Shown here: positions 39,765-61,900 of the stretch, piece after piece | Numbering within the stretch: position 1 is the first letter of the stretch | Layout: each line of letters starts with the position of its first letter | Assembly (NCBI RefSeq): GCF_000203815.1 | Contig: NW_004457735.1 | Location: 806,001-870,000, forward strand | Reading direction: 5' to 3' | Length of the DNA: 64,000 nt | Source of the DNA: Cavenderia fasciculata | Taxonomy: Eukaryota > Evosea > Eumycetozoa > Acytosteliales > Cavenderiaceae | The notes under the pieces: generated by a model | Database searches by the model: none | Seen by the model: the letters and a program-made list of their open reading frames with translations, nothing else | Told to the model about the DNA's origin: nothing | Program-made: the position numbers and the translations under genes

Positions 39765-42453
39765 ATGATAGGGCTGAACATATGCAACCACAGCAATTCA
39801 TTTTTTCAACGAGCTCTTCTATTCATCGTAGTAGTGTTTGTGTTGTTCATTTCAAACACACTCTCGCAACCTTTAAGTCAAGCAGAGTGTATGTAATAAT
39901 AATAATTATTAGAAGTCGTAATGAGTAGTTATAATTTGACTACTCTTTTTTTTAAAAAGATTTTATTCTTCAGAATTTAACACTTTGAATAGAGGGTGTG
40001 TCAAGTCGATGGCAGTGCGTAGTGGGTGCTAGGTGCGTCGTTCAGCAGCTATCCCAATTGGGTCGTAAAAAAATAAAAAAAAAATGAATTTCCATTTTAG
40101 GAATTGTCGGTTGGCAGACTTTAGAGCACCAACCAAGCCACAGTAAGTTTATTATGAGTCAATAAAAGAGATAAAGTATAAGATAAATGAAGAGATAGAA
40201 CATAGTATAGTTAGAACATATAGTATATAGTTATATATATAGATATATCATTGTATTTTGTGGCTCGTTAGTGCCAAATGCACAAGAAAGGATAAGGAAT
40301 AAGAGTTCACAATATTGTCAAGTACTGAATCAACACCAAGTCTATTGCTGTTATAACATTCACGAGTTACTTGTACTTATTTGCTCCTCCAATCCACTCT
40401 TGATGCAGAGAGATACAGAGCTGCTCAAGTAAATTATCATTGTTTAAAGATATTGCCGCAGTTGCGTCTTTGTATGTTTAAATCTGCCACGATTATCGAT
40501 CATAGCATTGGTCCATTTACACTCAACTACCTGACCTGTGTCTCTTATCGCACTAGCTAGTTGCATGTTACTATAGTATAGAACTACCTACCTTTTTTTT
40601 ATCTTCTTTTTTGGTTTTATTTATAACTATTTATTGGTGAATGGATGAATGGATGGATGGATGGAATGAACGGAGTTATCCTTGTCGTTGTTGTTGATGT
40701 TGATGTACTATTGCCGATAGAAGCAGTTTGTTTTCTGGGAGATGTGCTATAAGATAGCATTCATCGTGAAAGTTAACTTTACATTGGCAACAAGTCTTGG
40801 TGGTTCTTGTTCTACGCTTTACATCAAGGACTTTGCAATACTGACAAGGATTTAGATCACCTTGAACCAATGCGTGGACTACAGTTTGAGGAGCAGCAGC
40901 AGAAGTGGGAGCATATTGGCCTCCATTTCCACTGGTTACGTATGTGGATTGTGTAGCCAATTCTTGTTCCAGTTGTTTAATCCTATCTCTTTGATCCTGG
41001 AATACTTTTGATGTAATTGGATTCAAGTGTTCCAATTGTTTTTGAATAGGCTCCTGCAAGCCAAGCTTATCTCTTACCACGTTTTGAGTGAAATCACAAA
41101 ATCGGTATGTGCTATTGCCTTCAAGGGATTTGAAGATGCAATATGCATTCACTATTGCACGATCCAACTGCGCAAATATGTTAACATGTGTGTATTTGCT
41201 TTTTCGATGGGGATATGACCGACAATTTGATGATAGTTGTCCTGACAGATCGACTCCGTGGGTAGTTGCATTGTATTGAGTCTGCACATCGAGCTTTGTG
41301 AGTTTTCCTTCTTTTAATGTATATGGATTACAGGCATTTGATAAAAAATATGTTACTTTGCTGTCATTGATGGCGGTGGCACAAATGTCCTGGGGAATAC
41401 CAGAGTCTTCTTTTGGAAATGCTATAGCAGCCAACTTTTTCTTGTTGTCCTTTTGTACCATGCGTCCTAAACCATCTTTGAAAAGGTACGTTGGTCTAAT
41501 GGACCTTACAGTCATTACATAATGAATCTTATTGTTGGGATTGTTATCGTCGTTGTTGGAATTGATGTTTTGACTAAAGTTTGATAATACAGTGGCAACT
41601 TGTAATGATGTGTAATAGTTATCCATTGCAAACAAATAGTGACTCAATGGTCTATCATCTGTAGCTACTTTTTGTCTGACCCACTCTGCAAATTCGATTG
41701 GGATTTTAAGAGGACTATTTGGTGGAAAAGAACTAACCACAGATGGATCTAAATAAGACAATAATAATGATTAGACATATGATGATAATGATGATATTTG
41801 TAAATTGTTATAAAACAACATACCTATTGTTACAGATTTTGTTGTAGATTCATCACTACCTCTGTAAAGCCATTGGGTCAATATAAAACCATTTGAGTCA
41901 GATAAAACGAAATACTTTAATCCAAATTTGTGTGGTTTATCTGGTTCATACTGCTTGAACCTTACCAAGCCTTTATAAGGGGCCATATATTCATCGATTG
42001 ATAAACGTAATGATGGGATATAGTGGTTGTTTGAATTTTTTTCAATCATTTGAATGACGGAATCTTCGTCATAGTGAAGGAATTTGAGGATGGACTTAAA
42101 TCTTTTTCTTGACATTAATGGGCGGATAACAGATGGAGGATGGAAAGGGCTCTTTCTATTCCAATGGTCTTCCGCCCGTGGGAGTTTGACAAGACCCATA
42201 AAAAAGGCAATATAAAAGAAATTCTCCAATTGTTTATAGGTAAACAACTTGGTGTTGTCAACCAACTGTATTTCCTCTTGTTCTAACTGTTCTTGAATAA
42301 AGCTAAGCCTATCTTGTGGAGATAATCCTTGTGGCATTGTTGATAGAAACCCACGCTTCCAAGTCTCAAAATCAACCATTCTTCCAACAATTTGATTGGT
42401 ACTCAGTTTCTACTGCATTGGTTTGATTTGAGGTAGATGTGGTAGATGTTGTC

Positions 42454-42547
<94 letters not shown>

Positions 42548-45500
42548 TGGTCGATGTTTGCGAGTGGGAGGGTGTGAACAAACGAAGCAGACTGGATCCA
42601 AAGCTTGAAGAGGAAGTGGTGGCGGTGGTGGGAGTTGTTGATGAAGATGTATTAGAAAGAATAGCTGTAGACAATAAAACAACAACAACAACAACATTGT
42701 CTCAACCCTGTCTCAATGTTACTTCAGAACCAACAACGATCATGATGATACCAACCAAGGTGGCAGATTCACAGGTCACGCCACCAGCAGCAGCATCAGC
42801 AGCAACAGAAGCAGCACCTGAACCAGATCTTAAAACAAAACAATCATTGGATCTTCTTCAAAGCGTTAGATCGAGGTTCGGAGATCAAAGTCCTATATTC
42901 TACGAGTTTATTAGACTCTTGCAAGGTTTTCACTCTAATTCGTAAGTATATAGTATTGTATAATATTACTCTTTTAACGATTGTTATATTAATTGATTAT
43001 TTCATCTCATCTAGTCATACACCTGAATTCATTGTAAACAATATAAGAACTTTATTTAAAGATCATCAAGATTTATTAATTGGATTTGATCTTGTTGTTG
43101 GTGCTCCAATTACTACTTCTATTTCTACTCCACCAACTATTGTACAACATTCAACTGCTACCACCGCCACTACAACTATAACTAAACCACCTCCATCTCT
43201 TCCAATCCCTGCGTCACTTGAAACTAAACCTCTGGTTCCTGTTGTGGCGACACCATCTAAATCACCAACCTCCTTCTTCCCAAAGACTGACGAGCTGCTA
43301 TCAAACAGCGTCATTGAAACAAGCTGTACAGAGATACCAGATATAACAAATGAAACTGGATTAAAACGACATACAACCGATGAGACATTGCATAGATTAC
43401 TCAACAAACTAGAGATTCAACCAATTGATGAATCGACTGGTATCATCAACAACAACAGTCACTTGCCACTCACAACTGATGATCTTCTCACACCCGAACC
43501 CAGATCACCACGTGGTGGACCACAACAACAAGTAGCAGCAGAGGAAGAATCAACAGACGACGATGAAGAATCAGAGTCAGATGACGAGGAGGAAGAAGAA
43601 GAAGAAGAGCCAGCAACAACAAACAAGGCTGGATACCAACAAGACGAGGTCGCATTATCAGATGAAGGTGAACAAATAGAGGATCCAGATCCAGTCGACT
43701 TTAACCCCGACGATTTAAACGATCAAAAGAGAATGACAGAGATTCACGAGCTCATAAGACAAAGAAACACAAGACAACGATACCAAAGAGAACAAAAACT
43801 CAACGATATGTTTGATCGAATCACCAAGGGTGCTCCTCCACCATACATCACACCAACAAAGTTTGAAAAACGTAGAAAGAAAAAGTATCCAGAGGACCAA
43901 GACGAGGAAGAGGAGGTGGAAGTGTCAGAATCAGATACAAGCCTTTCATCAAGTCTAAATGATTCAGTCAACCTTTTATCTTTAAATCCTTTGGCTCCAA
44001 TTTTAGAAGGTCAAATTTTAAATCCATCAACAACAACAACAACAACATCATCATCATTTGTAACACCAAGAAAATCAGAAAAGAGAAAAGATCCACCACC
44101 ACAATCTCCATTTGCACTACCACCACCATCTTTAACCAAATCCTCTTTAGAATCTCTTTCCATTTCAAATGGCAGTATTGGAGAAACAGTTCTTTTCAAA
44201 AAATTGTTTTCAAACTCTAGCTCAATTCACAAGAAAATGAGAGAGAAAATGACGGCTGTCGCCATTTTAAATGCAAAGGAATTATTAAAACATGACAAAG
44301 AATCAAACATTAATATCATTCTCATTTCATTAATGAGATTATCTTTATTTGCATCGTCCATTGAATCTAATGCTCCCAAAGGTAATGAAACAAAAAATTG
44401 AAACAATTATAAATATAGTGGATATAAACTAATAATATTATTTATTTAATTATAGGTACTGAAAAAGATAAATTTCAACAATTATTAAATTCAGAAAATG
44501 GATTATCAAATCAATTTTTAAAGTGGAAAGCTACAGATGTCATTAAATCCTATCAATCAGTTAGCACTGATCAATGGTTGTCGGCGACTTCACATACCAA
44601 GAAAAAATTGGTTCATGTACATTTGATGAATCAAATCATTGTACCATTGTTTGGAGTGCCAACTAAAATTCTTGCTGCATTGGCTGATATTCCTAGCAGT
44701 TTCACCAGTCAAGCTACTGGAATAGATACTTTGGAAAAGATTATCACCTACATGACAGAGCAAAAGAAACTGTCAACGCCAGAAGAAACCCAACTCTTCA
44801 AGTCTACACTTGTCAAAGTGTACAGTATCCTTTCAGCTCCTCCTCCACCAAATCATCTACTTGCTCGATTCACTTCATCAGAAATCCAATCAATTATTAA
44901 TAATCGTTCAGAAATCTCTGGTAAACTTAAAACAATTGTCAAAAATCATGATCCTCCAAAACAACCTCAACCTCAGCCTCAACAAACACAGCAATCTCAA
45001 CCACCTCAACTTCAACAACCAGTCATTGTTCAACCTATTGTCAATTCCCAACCACAACCTATTGTTCTTCCTCAAAAAACAGCTACTGCTACCACTACTG
45101 TAGCACAGCCCGTTGAACAACCTCAACAAAAGGCAATGACTAGACCAGACACAGCAGCTTTCCAACAACCAGCTACAAACACAACACAACAACCAGTCGT
45201 TATTCCTCAAAGTCAACCTCCTCCCCCTGCTCCTATTCAACCCCAAGTTCAACCTATTATTCCACCCCAAACAACCACTACTACAGGACAACAACAACAA
45301 CCAAATAACAAAAAATCAACTACCAGTTCTATAAATACAAATGAATTTATGCAATCAACAGAAAAATCACTTCAAGAATTGACGACTGATCAAGCAAAGA
45401 TTCAATATCTTTTGCAACTAGTCTCAAAACAACAAGCACAAATCCAATTGACACAAAACGAAAATCAAAAGCTTTCAACCCAAAACCAAATGCTCTATGA

Positions 45501-46430
45501 CAATATCGATAGATTTGCAGTGTGGCAAAGAAATGTTAAAACCCAATATGAACAATATGCATCATTCATGTCCCATTCTATGATGTTTTCTCTCAACAAC
45601 CCAAAAAAATAATTATAATTCATTTAATTAACGGCCTCGCAAAGGACATACTTATCAAAATTAAAAATTTGAAAGGATCAATGGCCTCAAATCCAAACAA
45701 CCATTATTTTGATTTACCAACTGTCACCAACAGATTGGCTATTATTTTTATTTGTTTCTATTGTTAAAAGAATTCCTCAAAAGTTTGGTTGGAGGAATTT
45801 ATTAAGGATAAGAAATTATTATTTATTTTTTAAAGACAACAATCATACTATTTATTTTTTTTTATGTTTGTGGAGTGTAAAGTGGCATGTTTTCATATCT
45901 GGAATATTGACCAGTGAAATCGTTGAATGATACGATGGTGTTGGGTGCTGCTGATAGGACATTGTCAACTGGCTTGCAACCGTGGCAGAGTACATCAAAA
46001 TAACCATCTGGCTTAAGGCCCTTGGTGAATCCAAAGTTGCATTGGCCTGGCAAATTATTCTTGTTGTAATAATAACCCAACATTTGTACAGTAGGATCAT
46101 TATCACTTTCGAAAACATTAAAGGCACAGATAGCAGCACCTGCATAGAAACTATTTAAAAGAAAAACAAATCGTCAGTCCACAATCAACATGTTAATTCC
46201 ACCATATCAAAAAAAAATACATAGTATTAACTTACTCGGCAGTGACTTGTGAATCAGTGGCAAGGACAGCACCGTGGTTATTGTTGCAGAGATCCACAGG
46301 TACGGTAGTATCACCATTGGCCTTGACACTGAAAGTTTCATTTAACATATGACCATTGGCAATATAGTGGATGTTCCAATAACATCTGTTTCTTTCTAAA
46401 AAAGTGAATTAAAATATTCAGAGTTAGTAG

Positions 46431-46469
<39 letters not shown>

Positions 46470-49400
46470 TGTAAACAATAATAAAACATACTTGGGATAC
46501 CGAGGAATCCTTGGGGTGGCTTGTATCCAAAGCAAAGGAATCCTACTGATTGAGCAGGGGTTGAGAAACTAACAGTTTGGAGATCATTGTCCATTGGTCT
46601 GGCAAGAAGATAGTTACCAGTTGAGGAACTATCATCATACAAATAACCATAATATTCTAGAAAGTAAGATGGTAAGTATCATGCAGGCTGGCAATTGAAA
46701 AATTTTAAACTACATACTCCATTCGTAGAGGTTTGGAAACTGATCGCCAACTTGAGCCGCAAATTCATTGAAATTTGCCCTTCTGGCACCAACTTGGGAA
46801 CATACCTCTTGAGCATAGGCACCATTATCATTGGCAATTGGAGCATTGGACAAGAACTTGGCATTTGGCATATACAAGAAAAATTCGGCACCTAGGTATT
46901 TGAAAAAAAAAGAATATAGTTGATTAATATTGTTGAGTTTATTATTCATGTAATATCCAACGTACCTAGTTGAGCATAAGCTGATTGGAAAGCCAAACAG
47001 ACAAATACAATAAGAGCAAGTAAAAATCTCATTGTTGTGAATTGTGAAAATAACAATTAATTTGTTGTTGTGTTGAGTTGGAAAGGTAAAGGAAGGTAGG
47101 GTGTATTGGTTGATTGAAATAATAATACTGAAATCAACAAACAAAAACATACCACTTTAAATAGGTAACTGATGAGTTTGAAATTATGATTTATTTTAAT
47201 TTCTAAAATCATCGTTCACAAGACGTGGTTCAGGTTCCCTCCTCTTGCCAAACGAGAGAGGAGTGGAAGTAGTTGGGGAGATTAAAAGATAGATATTGCA
47301 TACGTAGACTATTGCAAAGATTATGGTTGATGGATTTATTTTAATTTCTTTTGCTGGTGGTCTCAATAGATACATATGCAAGTCAAAAGGGGGTCTAGAT
47401 TGAAAAAAAATCAAAAGGGTCCACAAGACGAGAAATGACAGAGGCCATTGGCTGGTTGTTCATCAAGTAAATTTAGAACTTCAAGGATAGCTTTGAATTA
47501 GGTGTAAACAGCAAAGCATTTACCACGTCTGTCAGACTACTCTGTCATCGATTGACAAATCAAAAAAAAAGGTAACTTCCGATGATGTTCCCAAAAGAGC
47601 TCAGACGATCAGATTTTAATTGAAACAAAAAAAAAGAAAGTTATTATCTTCTCATGGTAGTCTTTCATTGGTCAGATTTTTCGATACTACGTCAGCACCC
47701 CCTTTTGCTCACTGTTCTTCTTAAAATCAATCGACCAACACCACCATTGGTTCCTTATCTTTTTATGGGGATAGTGAGGTCGACCGACAGAAATGTCAGC
47801 ACGCTAATCTCCCCAAAAATAATAATCCCTACAACCTGAACCACGTCTTTTGAACGATGATTTTAGAAAATTAAAATAAATCATAATTTCAAACTCATCA
47901 GTTACCTATTTAAAGTGGTATGTTTTTGTTTGTTGATTTCAGTATTATTATTTCGAATCAACCAATACACCCTACCTTCCTTTACCTTTCCAACTCAACA
48001 CAACAACAATTAATTGTTATTTTCACAATTCACAACAATGAGATTTTTAACTGCTCTTATTGTATTTGTCTGTTTGACTTTCCAATCAGCTTATGCTCAA
48101 GGTAAAGTTTAATTTCATTTTCTTCATCATCAAAATGTAATTTATTTTATTCTAATTCTTTTTTCTTTTCTTTTTTTTCTATACCAGAATACTTTTACTA
48201 CCAACCAAATGGTAATTTCACATCTCCATATCCACCAAACAACATTGCCGATATTCATTTGAAGGTTTGTACTCTTGTAGGAGCAGCTCCAGCTATATTG
48301 GCTGCCTTTTCTGCTGCAGTTTCTGCTGCTGGAACCTCGGCTTCCAACAAGTATGAATGGTCTCTCTATGGTTGGATCAATGATGAAAGCACCTCCACCT
48401 ACAAGTTGGTCAGACCAATGACCCAAGCCGTCCAAACTTTCCCAAACACTAATATTGTCAAGGTTGGTTTCATCTGTCTTGGTACCAAGCCAATTTTGGG
48501 ATACCAAGGTGTATTAAAGTATGTTGATATATTTTCTAAAAAAAACCTACACTTTGTATTTATTGACAAAATTTATTGTTATTTCATTATGATTTAGGCG
48601 TAATGCAGGATATTGGACCCCAAGTGGTGTCGTCCTCAAGGAAGCTTACGCCATTTCTGCACCAGGTGGTTATGCTAATCTCAACGATCTCCAAGCCGAT
48701 TGTGCCAATGCTCTTACTGGTTCGAGTGTTGCCGTGGTCAACCAAATCTATGAAACCTTTTACCAAAACTCGTCCATCTGTGTCAATGCCTTGTTCAAGG
48801 ATAACGTTGATAATGCTCCAAGAAAAGGTTATTACTATGGTATTCCAGGCCAAGCCGGATGTACCTTTGGTTTCAATTACGGTGCCTATACTCCTGGATC
48901 CCCTGCTCTTGCTGGTATGTAATCATCATTGAATGTATTGTGATTTTCTTTTATTTGTTAATCTAATATTTTTTGTTTCTTTCAAGCCGGTATCTGTTTT
49001 GGTCCAAAGCCAGTTACCAGTTCTTACTACACCAGTGCCACTAGAGTCGTCAGTGTGTACAACTTCAACATAATTGGTAAATACTCTAGATTCGAGTCCA
49101 TTGCAAACTACCCTATCCAAAGCTTGTAATTAAATTGATAAATAAACATTACACTAAAGTTTAAAATTATGTTTGGGATGATAAAAATAGATATATAAAT
49201 ATCTGTCAAAATTATTAAATTAATTGTTTTTTTTTTTATCTTCACAAGAAATATGTTCAATCATGTGCAATTGTATCGAGGAGATACTGCTAGAATTCTC
49301 CCTTATATTGATTATTTTAAACCGAAATAATAATGACATCATAGCAGTATCTCTGAAAGTCATTTAGAAAACCTTGGTATGCACAGATATTTTGGCTTAA

Positions 49401-52400
49401 CAAACCATCGAGAAAATATTTTTCCATTACGGGTACTGTACCAAAGAGTATTAATATTTTCATCGATTGATCGGCAGATCTTGTTCCTTTTACTTTCTAA
49501 TTTATAATATAACTAAATACTTTACAACTAATCGATTAATAGATTTTTGTACTTTCTCACCCGATGAGTTACAATAATACTTGATTTTCAAATCATGATT
49601 CTTTTCAATTTAAAAATCTTGGGGCAACTATCAACAAATATCACTATAAAAATCTTTAAATATTAGATAACGATCATTCAAATTCAAAAACCAATGTTGT
49701 TCTTTACGAAGAGGACTTGCCCTTACTCTGGGGTTGGACCTTTATATCAAACCAATCATTCGTCATCTTTACTTTTATTTATTTATGTGTATTTATTATC
49801 TATCTAAAAAGTAAAGAGATAGAATTAATTTATTATTTATTAAATTGTTATAAAAAATGAATAAAAGATATAGACAGCAGCAATACTTTATTACAACAAC
49901 AGTATTATTACAGATATTATATTTATTATGTTGTAACTATGGCCATCAAGGAGGAGTGACGGTTTCAAATGCACAAACACAAAGTCCAAGTCAGGGTTTA
50001 ATGAAATACACCACCATTGTGACATATGACCAAGGAGAATGTAGCTCTGGCCAAATACCAACCAATCCCCCCGAAAAGATAGTATCGTTTACGCCAGAAG
50101 AATGTTACAGGTATCCAACTCGTAGTATATTGACTCGATGGAATTCACCAACCTCTGTTCAGCTCCAAATTTTCAACACGATGACCTGCCAAGGAATGAT
50201 TCTGACCGACATGACTATCGACACTTCCATTGCAGGTTGCCAGAATCCATTCGGTCTTCCCAAATGGTTTATCATTCTATTTGGAAAACCACAAGCTCCA
50301 ATCATCGGATCGTTACCATATTTATACTATGAAAAAACTTCACTCAGTTTGTATGATTGCGATCATCCAAATTTATCATTTATTTATTTGCTAACATATA
50401 TGTAATCAATCTTATATAATGTAAAGCTTTTGTTATCCAGGTGTAGACAGATATTACAGTGCTAGAACCTACTTGATGCCTGGTAGATGCACATTTAGTG
50501 ATTATATGGGTATTGCTGAAAGAGGTGTTGATGGTACAGACACATCGATACAGACTATCAACGATGCTGTCAATTGTGCAGGTGCAACTACCACCTATGA
50601 CTATGATTGTCCTGCAGTCATCAATCCCTACAGAATAGGCTTGGCATTCAAAACAAAACCATACACTCGAGTCACAGGCACTGTCACTGTTCTATCGTAC
50701 ACTGCCATCAGAGTACTCGGGCTAGACCTTGGTTTCGATCAAAAAGCAAATGCCTTTACAACGGTGATGCTCAACCAATTATCAACAAGCACACCTTACA
50801 AAGATGGCTATTCATTCCAAGCTTCTACAAATATGACCTTTACAAGTTTAACTGCTGGCTTTTCAGGTACCATATCATTTTACGTTGATGGTTTTGATTA
50901 TGTTAATAATATTGAAGTTGCTCCCTTAACAACTCAACCTTTTACAATTCCTTCTTGTATGTATAATCAATCTAGAATGATAATATCATTGATTATTTAT
51001 TCATACAATTTTCTTTTTAAAGACCCAACGATGACAACTATTACACCAGTAACTGTTACTACCAATTCTATTACTATTACGTATGGATCTACTGGTGGAT
51101 TTGTAACCAATGGAAATACGTATGCTGTAAGTGCTACCATTTTACCATCGACTACACTTTTGTTCCCACAATGCTCGGCTATTACAACATGTCAATTGGT
51201 CGGACTGCCACCAGGCGCTCTCGTCAACGTCTCTGTCACCGTCTCCAACAGTGGTTCATCAAGCACCCAATTTATAATGCAACAACTTGTAAAACCGATA
51301 AGCAACCTTGATTTTGCATTCCAAACGGCCTATTCGACCGGCAACATCACCTTTTCGTATAGTGACACAGGATACGGAGAGACAAACTTTATTACAAGTG
51401 TAATGGATCAAACTACATTGGCCAATACTACGTACAACACCAAAAATATGTTTCAACTATTTGCAGTAGCACCAAGTATACCAACCAATTACAGAGTCAA
51501 CGTTACTGCCCTCAACGATGGAAACATGTTACAAGTTATAAAAACATTTAATTGGTTAGGAAGTAGGTAAAAAAAAAACAAATCAAATAGTTAATAATGT
51601 ACTAATAATTATTTACATTATTTTAAAAGATATTCTACTTAGTAATATAACTATAACAGATATTACATCAATTTCAGCAAATTTTTGGTGTAATATTGAT
51701 AATTTGGCTACTGGAAATTACCAGATCCCCATTACTTCAGCAACTGGTTCTTTAGTGTCAATTGGAATCAGTTCAAAAGGACCTATAAAACTATCCCTTA
51801 CTCCAAACACTCAATACACCTTTTCAGCCACTGTTATTGAAGCAACGACATTCCGTAAATCCCAAACACTCCCATTCGTCTTTAGTTCCGTTTCAACCAT
51901 TCAAATCACTGCTGTTGAAACGATCCAAAAAATGAACGCTTTAAACCAAACCTATTTACAAATAAGACCAACGATACAAGGTGGATCTCCCACTATTCCT
52001 ACTATTTTCCAATCAGTCTCTACCAATTTCACAAATGGAGTCACATTTAATACCTCTACAAACTCATTTACAGCTCCAAACCTTGCAGTTCCAAGTGGTC
52101 CATTTAATTTAAATATTAGAGCATCTCAACTTGATGATCAAGTAACAAGTATTTTTACTTTTAGAATTTATAAATGTAAGTAAAAAAAAATATTAATTTA
52201 TTATTACAAAAATTAATTGACCATTATTTTATTATAGTCCCATCAGTTGATCAAATCAATGTAACAAGTGGATATGAATCTGCAAACGTTTCATGGACAA
52301 GTAGTGGTGGAGTACCTGGAACCATTAGTTACGAAGTGACCATTTATAATCCGAGTAGTACACATCCAACCCCTGTTTCTGTATGCTCTGGTGTTGCCAC

Positions 52401-55400
52401 TAGTTGTTTGATTACCAAACTAACTTCCAATACTCCCTATGCCGTAGATATCATTGTCTCTTCTTCTCAATTTGATGATTATGTTAAAACATCTTCAATT
52501 CAAACTTTAAGATGTATGTTACTAGATATTATAAATAGTTTGATCTTTTTTTTTTAATTCTTTTTCTTTTTTTTTTTTATAGATCCAAATAATTTAACTT
52601 GTTTTGATAATAATGGAAATAATACAATTGATTGTAATGGATTTGGACAATGTTTAAATGGAACTTGTTTATGTGACACTAATAGGATGTTGGAATTGTT
52701 CGTTATCTTCATCAATTATTGTAACTGGCTGGCTCTTTCTTTGATTTTTCTTTTGTTTCTTTTTTCTCCTTGGTGTATCAGCCTCTTTTTCTTCATCATT
52801 ATCATCATCTTCTTCTTCATTGTATCTTCTTCTAGAAGTTGAATATGTAGTTGTTGTTGTTGATGATGATGATGGAGGCGGCTGTGATTCCTTTGACTTA
52901 TTCGTGAGAAAAAGTCTTATTTGTTGGTAATGTTGCTTGATGTATTTATAATCCCTTGCATATTTGCTTCGATGGATGAGATACAAATTCGATTCCTCGA
53001 GTATGTGGTTGATGACTGATTCGTCGATTATCAAGCTTATTACTTGACTAGGAGTTAATGGTTGATCGATGTTTTTGCTACGTGCTGATGCATTGCTGCT
53101 ATCCATTTCATAGGTTATTCGATTCGACAATTCTTCTGAGTTTGTATTATTTAAAATAGTCCATTTCTCTTTGAATAGATCCCCTATAAATGTGATAATT
53201 GTTCTAATTTGTTAGCAAGTTGTTGGTGAATCATCTATCTATCTATTTATATACATACGACATGGGCATTTACATTGAGAAGTACAACCATTATTATATA
53301 ACTTGCATTTGCAAGCAGTACAATTCCCCTTGTTAGCGCATTTACATTCAAAAATGGTTGTGTCTTGAACAAAATAGTAAGACTTGGATGCACGTTTGTC
53401 CAAGTCCGTTAGGTTATTGAATAATGGGATACGACCGACACTTTCTGGTTGTTTTTTCTTCTTGTTATTCAACTTGTGGACATAAATCAATCTTGTTTGA
53501 AGAAATCTATTGAACTTCTGGTGGATTTCCAACTCTTCAGGTGATTCAATGGCTTCAATAGATTCTTTTGCTTCAAACTTCTTGAATAACTCCATGTGGG
53601 CATCGAAAGTCTCTTTGAACCATTCAAATTCCTCTTGTAAATCATCTTCTTTGTAGTTGGTACGTGGTTTTAGTGGTGGTTGTTGTTGTTGTTGTGAATA
53701 CTCTACTTCTTTTTCTGGTACAGGTGTATGTGATCTTTGATATTCTGGTTCAACAAATGCATCATCTTCTAGATCTTCATCGTCAAGTATAGCATTACCA
53801 TCAAGTAAAGGATTATCATCAAGTAGATGATTGTCATCAAGTTGATTATTATCATCATACTCGGCTTCGATCCCTCCTTTGTATATGCTTCGAAACAATG
53901 CTACACCTTTCTTCAAACTTTCAAACATAGTTGTTGCTGCTGCTGATGCTGCTGATGCTGTTGATGATTTATCTGTAAATACTCGTATTTTTGCAATAAA
54001 GAAACATATAATAGATAAATAATGTTGAGCGTACACATATTATATGAAGATATGTTAAAATATAAATAGATAAAAAAAATTAAAATATTATGTTATTTCT
54101 ACCACCCGCTACTATAGATCGCTGAGCTATTACCAAATGCGGAATTGTTTTTTATTTTTTTTTGACTTTGATCTGAAACTGATTTTGGCATTCAAAGTGT
54201 TAATACTAATTTTTTTTGATTGATTTAATCAATTCAAATATTTATATTATTATTATTATTTTTGTTATAGTGGATTCAGCAATATGGATCATCCAACAAA
54301 ACAAAGTGAATGTTCCGATGGATCAGACTCTATGTAATATGCCAAGTCCGAATGATTATTTTGTTTGCTCTGCAGGTCATATAACCGACATGTAAATAGA
54401 ATGATAGTAGCTGTAGTAGTAGTTGTATTATTATTATTATTTGATCACTATTTTAACATTCTTTTCTTTTGATTAGACGAAATATAGCAATCACACAAAT
54501 CCAAACCAATGGAATGCCAAACGCTAACCTACCACTCGTATTCCCAGAATTGAAGACTTTTCTCATCAATCAAATTAATTTTACAGTAGCCGATCCCGCC
54601 CAATCTTTCTACGACCAACTGCCAACATGTTGTCCAAAAATCGAGAGGTTGCAGTATGTTATGTTATATGAAATGGTTTTCCATTCAAAACTAAACTATA
54701 TTAATCATGTTTATTTTATTTTATTTTATTTTATAGGATAATGGGAGACCCAAGTATGACCAATTTCCCAAACAACTTTGATTTAATAGCGCCTACCACT
54801 CTTCAAACTGTGACGGTTTCCTTGCCCTATCATCAATCGATCAAGTTACCTAGTCACCCATTAGTTTCAATTTTGGAAGTATATGGCAGCGACACTGCAA
54901 CAGAATTTGTGATCGATGATACAGTATTACTACCCAAACTCACGTTGCTTGGTTTTGGTATACCAAATGGCGGCAATAATCTTCAATCAATTGGTAACTT
55001 TACTGCCAAGTCATTCCCAGCCCTCACATCATTGTAAGTACTATCATTATCCATCCACACAAACCCAAGTCCACGTATCTAACATATGTTGAGGGAGGAA
55101 TCTAATTGATTGATTTACTTTTTTAACATGTTTTTTTTTTATTTATTTTAAAGATACCCATCCCTTTTATTTTCTACGCCTCCCATTCAATTAAATATCG
55201 ATGTTCCCTCCCTCGCCACTCTAGTATTTCAAGATGGCGGTCAAGTACCACCCAATACCATTGTTCATTTCAACAGTACTCAATGGTTGACTGATTTAAC
55301 TTATTTTGGAACTGATATAACATTTAACCCAGGTCTTACTACTTTTCAGAATTTAAAAGCAGTGTATGTACTATAATATAGGTCTATAGATTTATAACTT

Positions 55401-58356: not shown

Positions 58357-58942
58357 AAGAACAAACTCGATCGCTGACCTGCAACTAACAGGTCAAACAT
58401 ATTCATATGCACCATGGTATAGGGATCTTGTCCGAAAAATAAAATAAAATCAAAGGTCAAGGTGACTTTTTGTTCAAGTCATTCCGACCATCTTCATTGA
58501 TCATTTAATTTTTCAACATAAACATAATTGTACAGGTCATCAGATATCTGTACATTTTTTTTAACAATCTTTTAAATAAAGAATCAACGCTTACGTGGTG
58601 TTGATGAACCTCAAACGATCCCAAGTAGGGTCGACAATTCCGTCCCAATCGAATATTGACGCACAACTATAAAACGAATAAAAAAATAGTTGCTTTTTTT
58701 ACATACTCTGCAACTAACAACATACTCCGATTCGTTTTGCAAATTGGGTCCTTTCCGACCATCTTAGGACGATATTTTGATCGACTGGTCGTTAAAAATA
58801 TCATAGCTCACAACGAGTTGTTTAGGTAGGTGTTTTAATCAAGAGCTTTAAAAAATAACACTCTTTTAGTATTGTAACAACAGATAAAAAGAGAGAGAGA
58901 AAAAAAGAGATAAATTTGAATCATCAGTGATTAAAAAAAAGA
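58357..58942. promoter_or_regulatory. spacer between copies E and F with promoter of F
   Basis: AT-rich. The segment at about 58,845-58,942 matches the leader of copy E, including an ACAGATAAAAAGAGAG block. A more balanced stretch at 58,590-58,680 holds no recognisable gene. Confidence 0.5.
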
Positions 58943-61900
58943 ATGATGAGCACATTTTTTCAACGAGCTATTCTATTCATCGTAGTAGTGTTTGCACTGT
59001 TTATTTCAAACACACAATCACAACCTTTAAGTCAAGCAGAGTGTAAGTATTAATAGTGGTAGTGGTAGTGAGTGGCAATGAGTAGTTTTATATTTTATAA
59101 TATGACTTGACCTTGACTACTATTATCTTTTTTCACTGTATAATTAATTATTTATGTATTTTAAATTAATTTTATTATTATCAAATAGTGGATTCGGTGA
59201 TATGGATCATCCAACAGTACAAAGTGAATGCTCCGATGGATCAAACCCTATGTAATATGCCAAGTTGGAAAGATTATTTTGTTTGCTCTGGAGGTCATTT
59301 AACCGATTTGTAAGTACAATAGAACTACGACAAGCAGTAGTGTAGTGCATGGTACTAATAATAATAATTTAATTTGATCACTATTTTAACATTCTTTTTT
59401 TGATTCAAGACGAAATTTACCGGGCACACAAATCGAAACCAATGGAATGCCAAATGCAAACCTTGTACAACTCACATTGCCAGAATTGAAGACTATACTC
59501 ATCAATCAAGTTAATTTTACAGTAGCCGATCCCGCCCAATCTTTATACGACAAACTACCAACTAGTTGTCCAAAACTAGAGATGATTCAGTATGTTATAT
59601 TATGTTTGTAACACATTTGAAAGAGGGATCCTGGATCTTCGATTCAAAACTAAACTATATTAATCATTTTTTTTTTGTTTTTTTTATAGGTTAATGGGAG
59701 ACCCAAGTATGACCAATTTCCCAAACAACTTTGATTTAATAGCGCCTACCACTCTTCAAACTGTGACGATTTCCTTGCCCTATCATCAATCGATCAAATT
59801 GCCTAGTCATCCATTAGTTTCAATTTTGGAAGTATATGGCAGCGACAATGCAACAGAATTTGTGATCGATGATACAGTATTACTACCCAAAGCCACGCTG
59901 CTTGGTTTTGGTATACCAAATGGCGGCATTAATAATAATAATCTTCAATCAATTGGTAACTTTACCGCCAAGTCATTCCCAGCTCTCACAGCATTGTAAG
60001 TATCTCTACTGTCCATATATCCTTGCCAAAGGATCGATCTAATTATTAACACATATTTTATTTCAAAAGATATCCATCCCTTTTATTTTCCACACCTCCC
60101 GTTCAATTAAATATTGATGTGCCTACCCTCACCACTCTAGTATTTCAAGATGGTGGTCAAGTACCACCCAATACCATTGTCCATTTCAACAGTACTCAAT
60201 GGTTGACTGATTTAACTTATTTTGGAACTGATACTACATTTAACCCAGGTCTTACTACTTTTCAGAATCTAAAATCAGTGTATGTATTCTATATATATAT
60301 ATATATATATATTTATATACATACAAAGATTATCCACTCCCCTCTCTAATTTCTTCTTATTTATTTATTTTTACAATCACAGTACTGTTGGCAAATACAC
60401 TTCCCCTCTCTACCCATTCTCACAAGGGTATCCCCCAAACATTGTAAGTGTGAATTTGCCACTGTCATCCATCAGTACCATAACACCTACTCCCATTCCT
60501 TCATCTGCTACTAGTTTGTATGTATCAATATATCATATCATATCATATCAATCAAAGATTAATTATTAATTTAAATTGATATTTTTTTTTTAAAAAATAG
60601 AGATTTAACTGGAAGTCAAGTTGCAATGCCAATTGATTTCAATACAATATTACAAAACACTACTGGAAACTTAGTTTTAAATCTTCAAAATAATGTTCCA
60701 TTGTCAGGACCACTCGATCTAGAGACTTCATTGTGCAAGTTGAAACTATTGAATTTGGGTGGGACTGGTGTCACAAAGATTCCAGATTGTTTTTGGTGTT
60801 ATAAAAATGAACCAACTACAAGATTTGTAGTACCAGCTTTAGTTGTCATCCCAGGTGGATTTAACTGTCCAATCACATTTGAAAGTACCAATATAGCAAC
60901 TATATTCAAAAAGGCTATTATCAAGGGTAAAAATCTTGGTTGGGGTGCAAGTGTTGGTGGAAATACTCTGGTTGCAATCGTTCCAAATGAACAAATAGAG
61001 GCTACCCTCCCTGGAGTTGTAACTGATGGTATACCTCAAACAATCGATATTCAGTTTAGTAATGATTATCCAACATATAAATTCCCATTTAATGTTGTAG
61101 AGGCTGGTTTCATTATTTCAACCACAACTGCCAATCAATCACCAGACCGTGTAATGATGATCACAGTTACATTCTCTACAGTCAACACCTTTATTAATCA
61201 TTATGCATCTATAAATGGTGTATTGTCAACAACAAATTCAAATGTTGGCAGTACTTATCAATTTGGTTTCTTGGATCTTCCATTTGGTACTTACAATGTT
61301 AATATTTCAAATGATTATTATTCAATCATTGCTCCAAATGTTGAATGTACACAATGTATGTAAACTAGTTAGCAATCTTAAATAATTTAAATTGAGAAAA
61401 AAAAATAATAATAATAATATTTCTATTTAATATGCAGCATACCCAATTGTCAATACTATTGTACCCGATCCTGTTATTAAATCTGGATCGAACATTCAAT
61501 TCAATGGTATATTTGGAACATATCTCACCAGCTCATCAGTCACCATTCAAAATAGTAACAGTCAATACAACTACTCGGTGTGTTCAATTACCGAGTTTAC
61601 AACAACCAGAATATCGTGTAAGGTAGAGTCACCAATTTCAAGTGGTCTTGCTACTTTTAATATCACTGTCGATGGATACTCTATTCTCGAGCAATTCACT
61701 ATTCAATCAGCTCAACAACAATGTGAGAGTATCACTAATCATTGTGCCAATAATGGTGTTTGTACTCCAGATGGTGTTTGTGTTTGTAATGTCAATCAAG
61801 GTGGCTATTATAATAATTGTTCAAAACGTATGTACAATATTTTGTTGTCAAAATATTAAAAGATAATTAATATTAATTATTTTTTTATTTCAATAGCATA

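Follow-up and report, generated by a model that had tools for sequence, protein, structure and literature searches.

How did a 14.2-kb unit with the ends of a piggyBac transposon come to lie within an intron of the social amoeba Cavenderia fasciculata, with host-type genes between its ends? The unit is located in a 64,000-nucleotide stretch of DNA (the window, C3:806001-870000) of the 31.0-Mb assembly GCF_000203815.1, which has 21 contigs (C1, C3, C8 and so on). Unless stated otherwise, positions are window coordinates and sister copies of the element are named by contig. An earlier note on this DNA had viewed the segment as inserted in one piece and as a vehicle for moving genes around the genome. 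The history that we consider probable is a different one, in which a piggyBac element was broken open by captured host-type chromosomal DNA, the break having been sealed by a chromosome fragment.

The ends of the unit are formed by the following features:

39977..39990, plus strand: TTAA target duplication and left 10-bp terminal inverted repeat
54190..54203, minus strand: right terminal inverted repeat and TTAA

These ends are exactly as the earlier note had described them: TTAA occupies 39977-39980 and 54200-54203, and the 10-bp inverted repeat is perfect (CACTTTGAAT at 39981-39990 and ATTCAAAGTG at 54190-54199). By itself such a pair is weak evidence and could arise at chance level, there being four perfect TTAA+10-bp pairs at 0.1-20 kb spacing in the window, the unit's own among them. 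The 14-mer TTAACACTTTGAAT was found 11 times in the 31-Mb assembly, versus twice for a reversed control. Ten of the 11 occurrences are ends of copies of one element, two of them being the unit's own ends, and the remaining one stands alone at C3:677528, in line with chance. It is because the same termini recur across the genome that we regard the ends of the unit as real. A 201-base query from each end matched six places per end (window included).

Comparison with the sister copies divides the unit into an element and an insert:

39981..42664, no strand: left element part, with about the 3' three-fifths of the transposase gene (minus strand) and DDE_Tnp_1_7 in 41771-42409
42665..52680, no strand: insert of 10,016 bp that interrupts the transposase gene with host-type chromosomal DNA
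52681..54199, no strand: right element part; about two-fifths of the transposase gene (minus strand), from its 5' end

Between their TTAAs, the complete copies measure 4162 bp (C8), 4145 bp (C1) and 4122 bp (C14), versus 14,219 bp in the window. The unit is thus several times larger than usual, as had been noticed, although the division into element and insert had been missed. TTAA is found at both ends of the window, C1, C8 and C14 copies, and the C18 copy lacks its last 34 bp at the right end. Aligned to the sister copies, positions 39977-42664 and 52681-54203 abut at AATAG without loss of any element base, and the C8, C1, C14 and C18 copies continue through the insertion point without cargo. 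Since both parts align to the sisters and meet exactly, the unit consists of a complete ~4.1-4.2-kb element plus the 10,016-bp insert. The recurrence of the termini and the size of the three complete sisters, only 4122-4162 bp, also argue that the unit is not a new large type of piggyBac; judged by its sisters, it is one ordinary ~4.1-kb element copy with an insert. No second near-identical copy of the 10-kb insert was found in the assembly, which was searched with three overlapping pieces that together cover the whole insert.

The element itself is very young, to judge from its sequence. Ungapped differences from the window number 4/2651 (C8), 2/2644 (C1), 11/2632 (C18), 3/2615 (C14) and 2/2598 (C7) in the left part, and 2/1523 (C8), 0/1514 (C1), 4/1480 (C18) and 0/1520 (C14) in the right part. 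The element copies as a group are likewise young, and over both parts 2 of 4158 ungapped aligned bases distinguish the window element from that of C1. The C7 copy comprises only the left 2.6 kb and stops before the insertion point, so that it is uninformative on the cargo; at C7:1026081-1028678 (L017), the element is broken ~28 bp past a GAT repeat and is followed by unrelated sequence. That repeat, a microsatellite in the transposase gene (window 42454-42548), has five lengths among six copies, the window sharing its length with C7. On C11 there is a diverged element copy in pieces, at ~79-93% identity.

The identification as a piggyBac-type element at TTAA inside an intron holds, being supported by the TTAA ends, the sister copies and a DDE_Tnp_1_7 (PF13843) match at 41771-42409 (E=1.2e-25). 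PF13843 has 19 matches in this genome and none in 14 control genomes. Other piggyBac-type copies with a near full-length match to the PF13843 profile lie at C14:816487, C14:326357, C17:399126 and C20:359795. Long open frames run through the transposase region in the C1 and C18 copies, and the C8 copy has an extra stop within its long second frame. The window copy differs from these in the following feature:

42398..42399, minus strand: one-base insertion that shifts the transposase frame, common only to the window and C14

This base is present in two of the six near-identical copies and absent from C8, C1, C18 and C7 (C11 is not comparable there). That two copies at different sites have it in common suggests that a defective lineage may have been moved in trans.

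What the element holds was determined by comparison of the insert with the rest of the genome and by a domain scan of six cargo stretches and three proteins, in which the left partner of a divergent gene pair was represented by one exon. The features of the insert are:

42665..45612, plus strand: PAH-domain gene, probably without its promoter, its start and ~60 N-terminal residues relative to the C1 paralog
45862..47032, minus strand: gene with a signal-peptide-like start, left partner of the divergent pair (approximate model)
46970..48100, no strand: inverted arms (46970-47236 and 47833-48100) around the pair's common upstream region and first exons
48038..49129, plus strand: right-hand gene of the pair, with a signal-peptide-like start and an uninterrupted frame across the whole model
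49857..52680, plus strand: surface-protein-like gene (fn3; EGF-like by eye), truncated near its 3' part

Host-type genes between transposase sequences, as the earlier note had stated, are therefore present in 42665-52680, and the cargo looks like two apparently whole and two cut-off genes, apparently from the amoeba's own chromosome. The left cargo gene has the PAH domain PF02671 (E=4.9e-6) and a possible start, in its truncated form, at an ATG at 42742. In the surface gene, fn3 scored above the cut-off in one exon and 23.7 bits against a cut-off of 25 in the spliced protein; its end is EGF-like by eye, with Pfam EGF_integrin below the cut-off (E=0.059). The nearest relatives of both genes lie together at C1:1478887-1485470, the PAH paralog at C1:1482445-1485470 (83-86% DNA identity) and the surface-gene paralog at C1:1478887-1482183 (79%). 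Nonsynonymous (dN) and synonymous (dS) divergence from C1 were 0.060 and 0.350 for the PAH gene (893 codons) and 0.114 and 0.389 for the surface gene (800 codons). In this comparison the window stretches were without stops, and one stop occurred in the C1 stretch taken for PAH exon 1. Both genes look constrained over their divergence from C1, and old, constrained-looking cargo genes are thus joined to a very young element. Members of the surface gene's family also form a cluster at C13:584308-620196.

The two pair genes, whose signal-peptide-like starts were judged by eye, have relatives on C14, the left one at C14:1363594-1364622 (~69% DNA identity; its last exon is out of frame in the model) and the right one at C14:1365593-1366855 (~71%). 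Their inverted arms are 97% identical, the signal-peptide-like first exons included, and the C14 cluster contains stretches near 1365211-1365826 that match them at 80-81%.

The edges of the insert bear most directly on how it arrived:

42660..42664, no strand: AATAG, junction repeat (5 bp) at the left edge
52681..52685, no strand: AATAG, junction repeat (5 bp) at the right edge; 9/12 relatives of the cut gene have it in register

AATAG is single in the C8, C1, C18 and C14 copies and present at both edges of the insert in the window. The C1 surface gene runs ~320 codons past the end point of the insert, into a membrane-anchor-like stretch, and by this comparison the right edge falls inside the coding sequence of a surface-protein-like gene. 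At the left edge, the C1 PAH protein has ~60 extra N-terminal residues, and the window frame is open up to the junction with a VD-K-LSQP-like stretch in common with C1 (by eye); automatic alignments put the repetitive PAH 5' part elsewhere, which renders this edge less certain. It probably cuts the PAH-domain gene. Neither edge resembles a transposon end, because the right one cuts, and the left one probably cuts, coding sequence. We also read by eye the register of AATAG in 12 fetched members of the surface-gene family (L051, in which the site is uncovered, was left out), and found it in register at the cut in nine, C1 included. For this reason AATAG at the right probably belonged to the cut gene from the start, and the right junction probably represents a 5-base microhomology with the element. 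This weakens AATAG as proof of a duplication made by a transposase. At the left junction C1 has GTAGC and the window ATAGC, and a 3-base match, TAG, is possible.

The element lies in a gene that is itself surface-protein-like:

39765..39888, plus strand: exon 1 of the interrupted host gene, exon 2 of which restarts at 54271; a paralog without the insert lies at 58868-59962

Intron 1 (~39889-54270; splice sites were read by eye) contains the whole unit. The paralogous gene belongs to the same array, ~4.7 kb past the right end of the unit, and the left flank aligns to 58868-59095 and the right flank to 59118-59962. This leaves 22 bases in the paralog versus 39 unaligned window bases plus TTAA. 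The joined flanks follow the paralog's intron, with poor alignment in the AT-rich middle around TTAA. The proposal that removal of the segment restores a normal intron therefore stands in that the flanks match an uninterrupted paralog, but the restoration is exact only to ~40 bases; the empty site is located to within that distance, not base by base, and comes from a paralogous gene, not from another strain.

In the course of events that we propose, a recently active ~4.1-kb piggyBac element would have transposed into intron 1 of the surface-protein-like gene at TTAA. In a separate event, a double-strand break would have occurred inside its transposase gene at AATAG, and would have been sealed by the joining in of a 10-kb piece of chromosome with no loss of element bases. 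Short matches at the break would have been used, AATAG on the right and perhaps TAG on the left. We favor capture at a break because the junctions, with microhomology, no loss and a short duplication, resemble those of nuclear mitochondrial insertions (numts). For mitochondrial DNA at natural nuclear breaks, microhomology is reported (PMC2567098); 54% of events are free of any deletion, and 17 of 71 have flanking duplications of 1-11 nt. That end-joining was the mechanism, and that capture took place at this site rather than elsewhere, is what we infer from these similarities.

Several observations weigh against this explanation. Three of the 12 relatives (L043, L045 and L046) do not have AATAG at the cut, and a transposase-type insertion could also account for a perfect 5-bp duplication with nothing deleted. 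The captured fragment is large, at 10 kb, and its source locus was not found in the assembly, although low complexity may hide the short PAH 5' end. The 3' part of the C1 surface gene had at least 37 matches (repeat counts from our assembly searches are lower bounds). These were C1 itself, the window at 85% over the first 214 bases (the part still present), the family at 64-73% over long stretches, one match of 79% over 147 bp, and short ones of up to 94% at many loci, in the membrane-anchor-like stretch only; outside C1 and the window, matches of more than 150 bp all stayed at or below 73% identity. The C1 PAH 5' region had at least 18 matches, namely C1, the window exon and 16 simple-repeat stretches of up to ~50 bp. 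The source locus may have been deleted, lie outside the assembly, be collapsed or be foreign, and the fragment may have been cut out or copied.

Random capture also does not explain why a sister element lies beside the cargo's C1 paralog. At C1:1473786-1477938 (L014, L060), the element is found in the last codons of a surface-protein-like gene, to which it provides a new stop codon. That gene is the paralog of the surface gene cut in the cargo, and the element thus adjoins the cargo's C1 paralogs. By our own arithmetic such a coincidence has a chance of ~0.15% (five other near-identical copies and a ~9-kb target in 31 Mb), or ~1% if all cargo relatives are counted as targets. Recent copying of the C1 locus is ruled out by the cargo dS of 0.35-0.39, versus elements that differ at only 2/4158 bases. 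A preference for insertion into surface-protein-like genes was also rejected as the cause, as the open frames within 1 kb of the C8, C14 and C18 copies, and those around the C7 copy, did not resemble such genes by eye. In 10 kb on each side of the C1 region (L061, L063), no further piece of the cargo was found beyond simple repeats. The position of the C1 element hints that capture may have taken place near C1, with the composite moving later.

This brings us to the other histories that the locus could have had. Both ends of the unit are intact, and it is conceivable that a transposase from another copy would move it. In one version, which we think unlikely, the composite formed elsewhere and was brought here as one 14.2-kb unit by a transposase acting in trans, as a true gene-carrying piggyBac. 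The intact ends and TTAAs, the sister copies with long open transposase frames (C1, C18), the frame-shifting base common to the window and C14 as a sign of a defective lineage helped in trans, and the sister element at the 3' end of the cargo's C1 paralog are all in keeping with it. It is opposed by the lack of a second copy of the unit in the assembly (though a cut-and-paste move would leave none) and by a passage in a review according to which DNA transposition falls markedly above 6 kb of cargo. Nothing dates the capture before the insertion, and no donor site is known (none was searched for). A related version, in which a 10-kb block acquired at a break, perhaps from beside the C1 sister, was followed by movement of the 14.2-kb composite with transposase supplied in trans, is in our view also unlikely. 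If the composite did move as a unit, this would be natural gene carriage by piggyBac in a dictyostelid. As for the original proposal, neither insertion of the 14.2 kb in one piece nor the idea of a vehicle that spreads genes is supported. The C8, C1, C14 and C18 sisters are free of cargo, the transposase gene is interrupted, the junctions look like end-joining, no second 14.2-kb copy was found in the assembly, and the right edge cuts, and the left probably cuts, coding sequence; movement as a unit may have come later.

An error of assembly is improbable, whether the 10 kb was misplaced from some other locus or an identical source copy was collapsed into this position through the repeated element. 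In its favor, none of the 21 contigs yielded the flanks that the cut genes lack, and a near-identical repeated element is a known assembly hazard. Yet the two junctions fall at a single point of the element and complement each other to the base, with 5 bp repeated; neither the window nor the checked loci L001-L018 contain any N, and five shared bases are, by our reasoning, too few to make an assembler join. A fragment from another strain or species would account for the absence of a second copy and of the flanks, and for a dS of 0.35-0.39 from the nearest relatives. Yet diverged families like these are a common feature of this genome itself, and we consider a foreign origin very unlikely. Mobile elements of the Ginger/Tdd, long terminal repeat (LTR) and Maverick types duplicate 5 bp of target, and the perfect AATAG on both sides could suggest that the 10 kb is itself such an element. 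This is hardly credible, as the right edge consists of interior codons of a host gene, no second copy was found in the assembly, inspection by eye, without a repeat search, showed no terminal repeats linking the edges, and no transposase, integrase or polymerase domain was found in the scanned cargo stretches, which do not cover every exon. Fusion of two neighboring elements with the DNA between them, as in the Pack-TYPE model, was rejected since the parts make up one complete element and only 5 bases are repeated.

Under the favored explanation, capture of a chromosome fragment at a break, the unit would be a snapshot of a cut-and-paste transposon coming to hold host genes between intact ends, which is the first step that gene-carrying transposons require. 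It also serves as a warning, in that TTAA ends with host genes between them are no proof of carriage, and it is the comparison with sister copies that reveals the cargo as a separate insertion. Should such composites turn out to be mobile, piggyBac would offer a way for surface and secreted protein genes to be moved. In the open-licence literature searched, by titles and the starts of abstracts, we found no description of a gene-carrying piggyBac in dictyostelids.

The element shares with the piggyBac superfamily its TTAA duplication and DDE_Tnp_1_7 transposase (PF13843). It has terminal inverted repeats too, but its perfect repeat is shorter, at 10 bp, and starts with CAC, whereas 12-19 bp with a CC[C/T]T motif are given in PMC2872659; in addition, 10 kb of host-type DNA divides the window copy in two. 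In PMC8903248, Pack-TYPE plant transposons, which also have host gene DNA between intact ends, are non-autonomous and were studied as clusters of related copies, with acquisition by fusion of neighboring insertions favored; the window, in contrast, has one copy, the sequence of one complete element and a 10-kb block of several genes. Teratorn, a giant fusion of piggyBac and herpesvirus in fishes that is active and 41-182 kb long according to PMC6431247, likewise has piggyBac-type ends around a large cargo, but the cargo in the window is host-type DNA with cut genes and bears no sign of having moved. The numts at double-strand breaks, as portrayed in PMC2567098, share with our junctions the microhomology or short flanking duplication and the absence of loss, and differ in that here a transposon would have taken up 10 kb of genic DNA.

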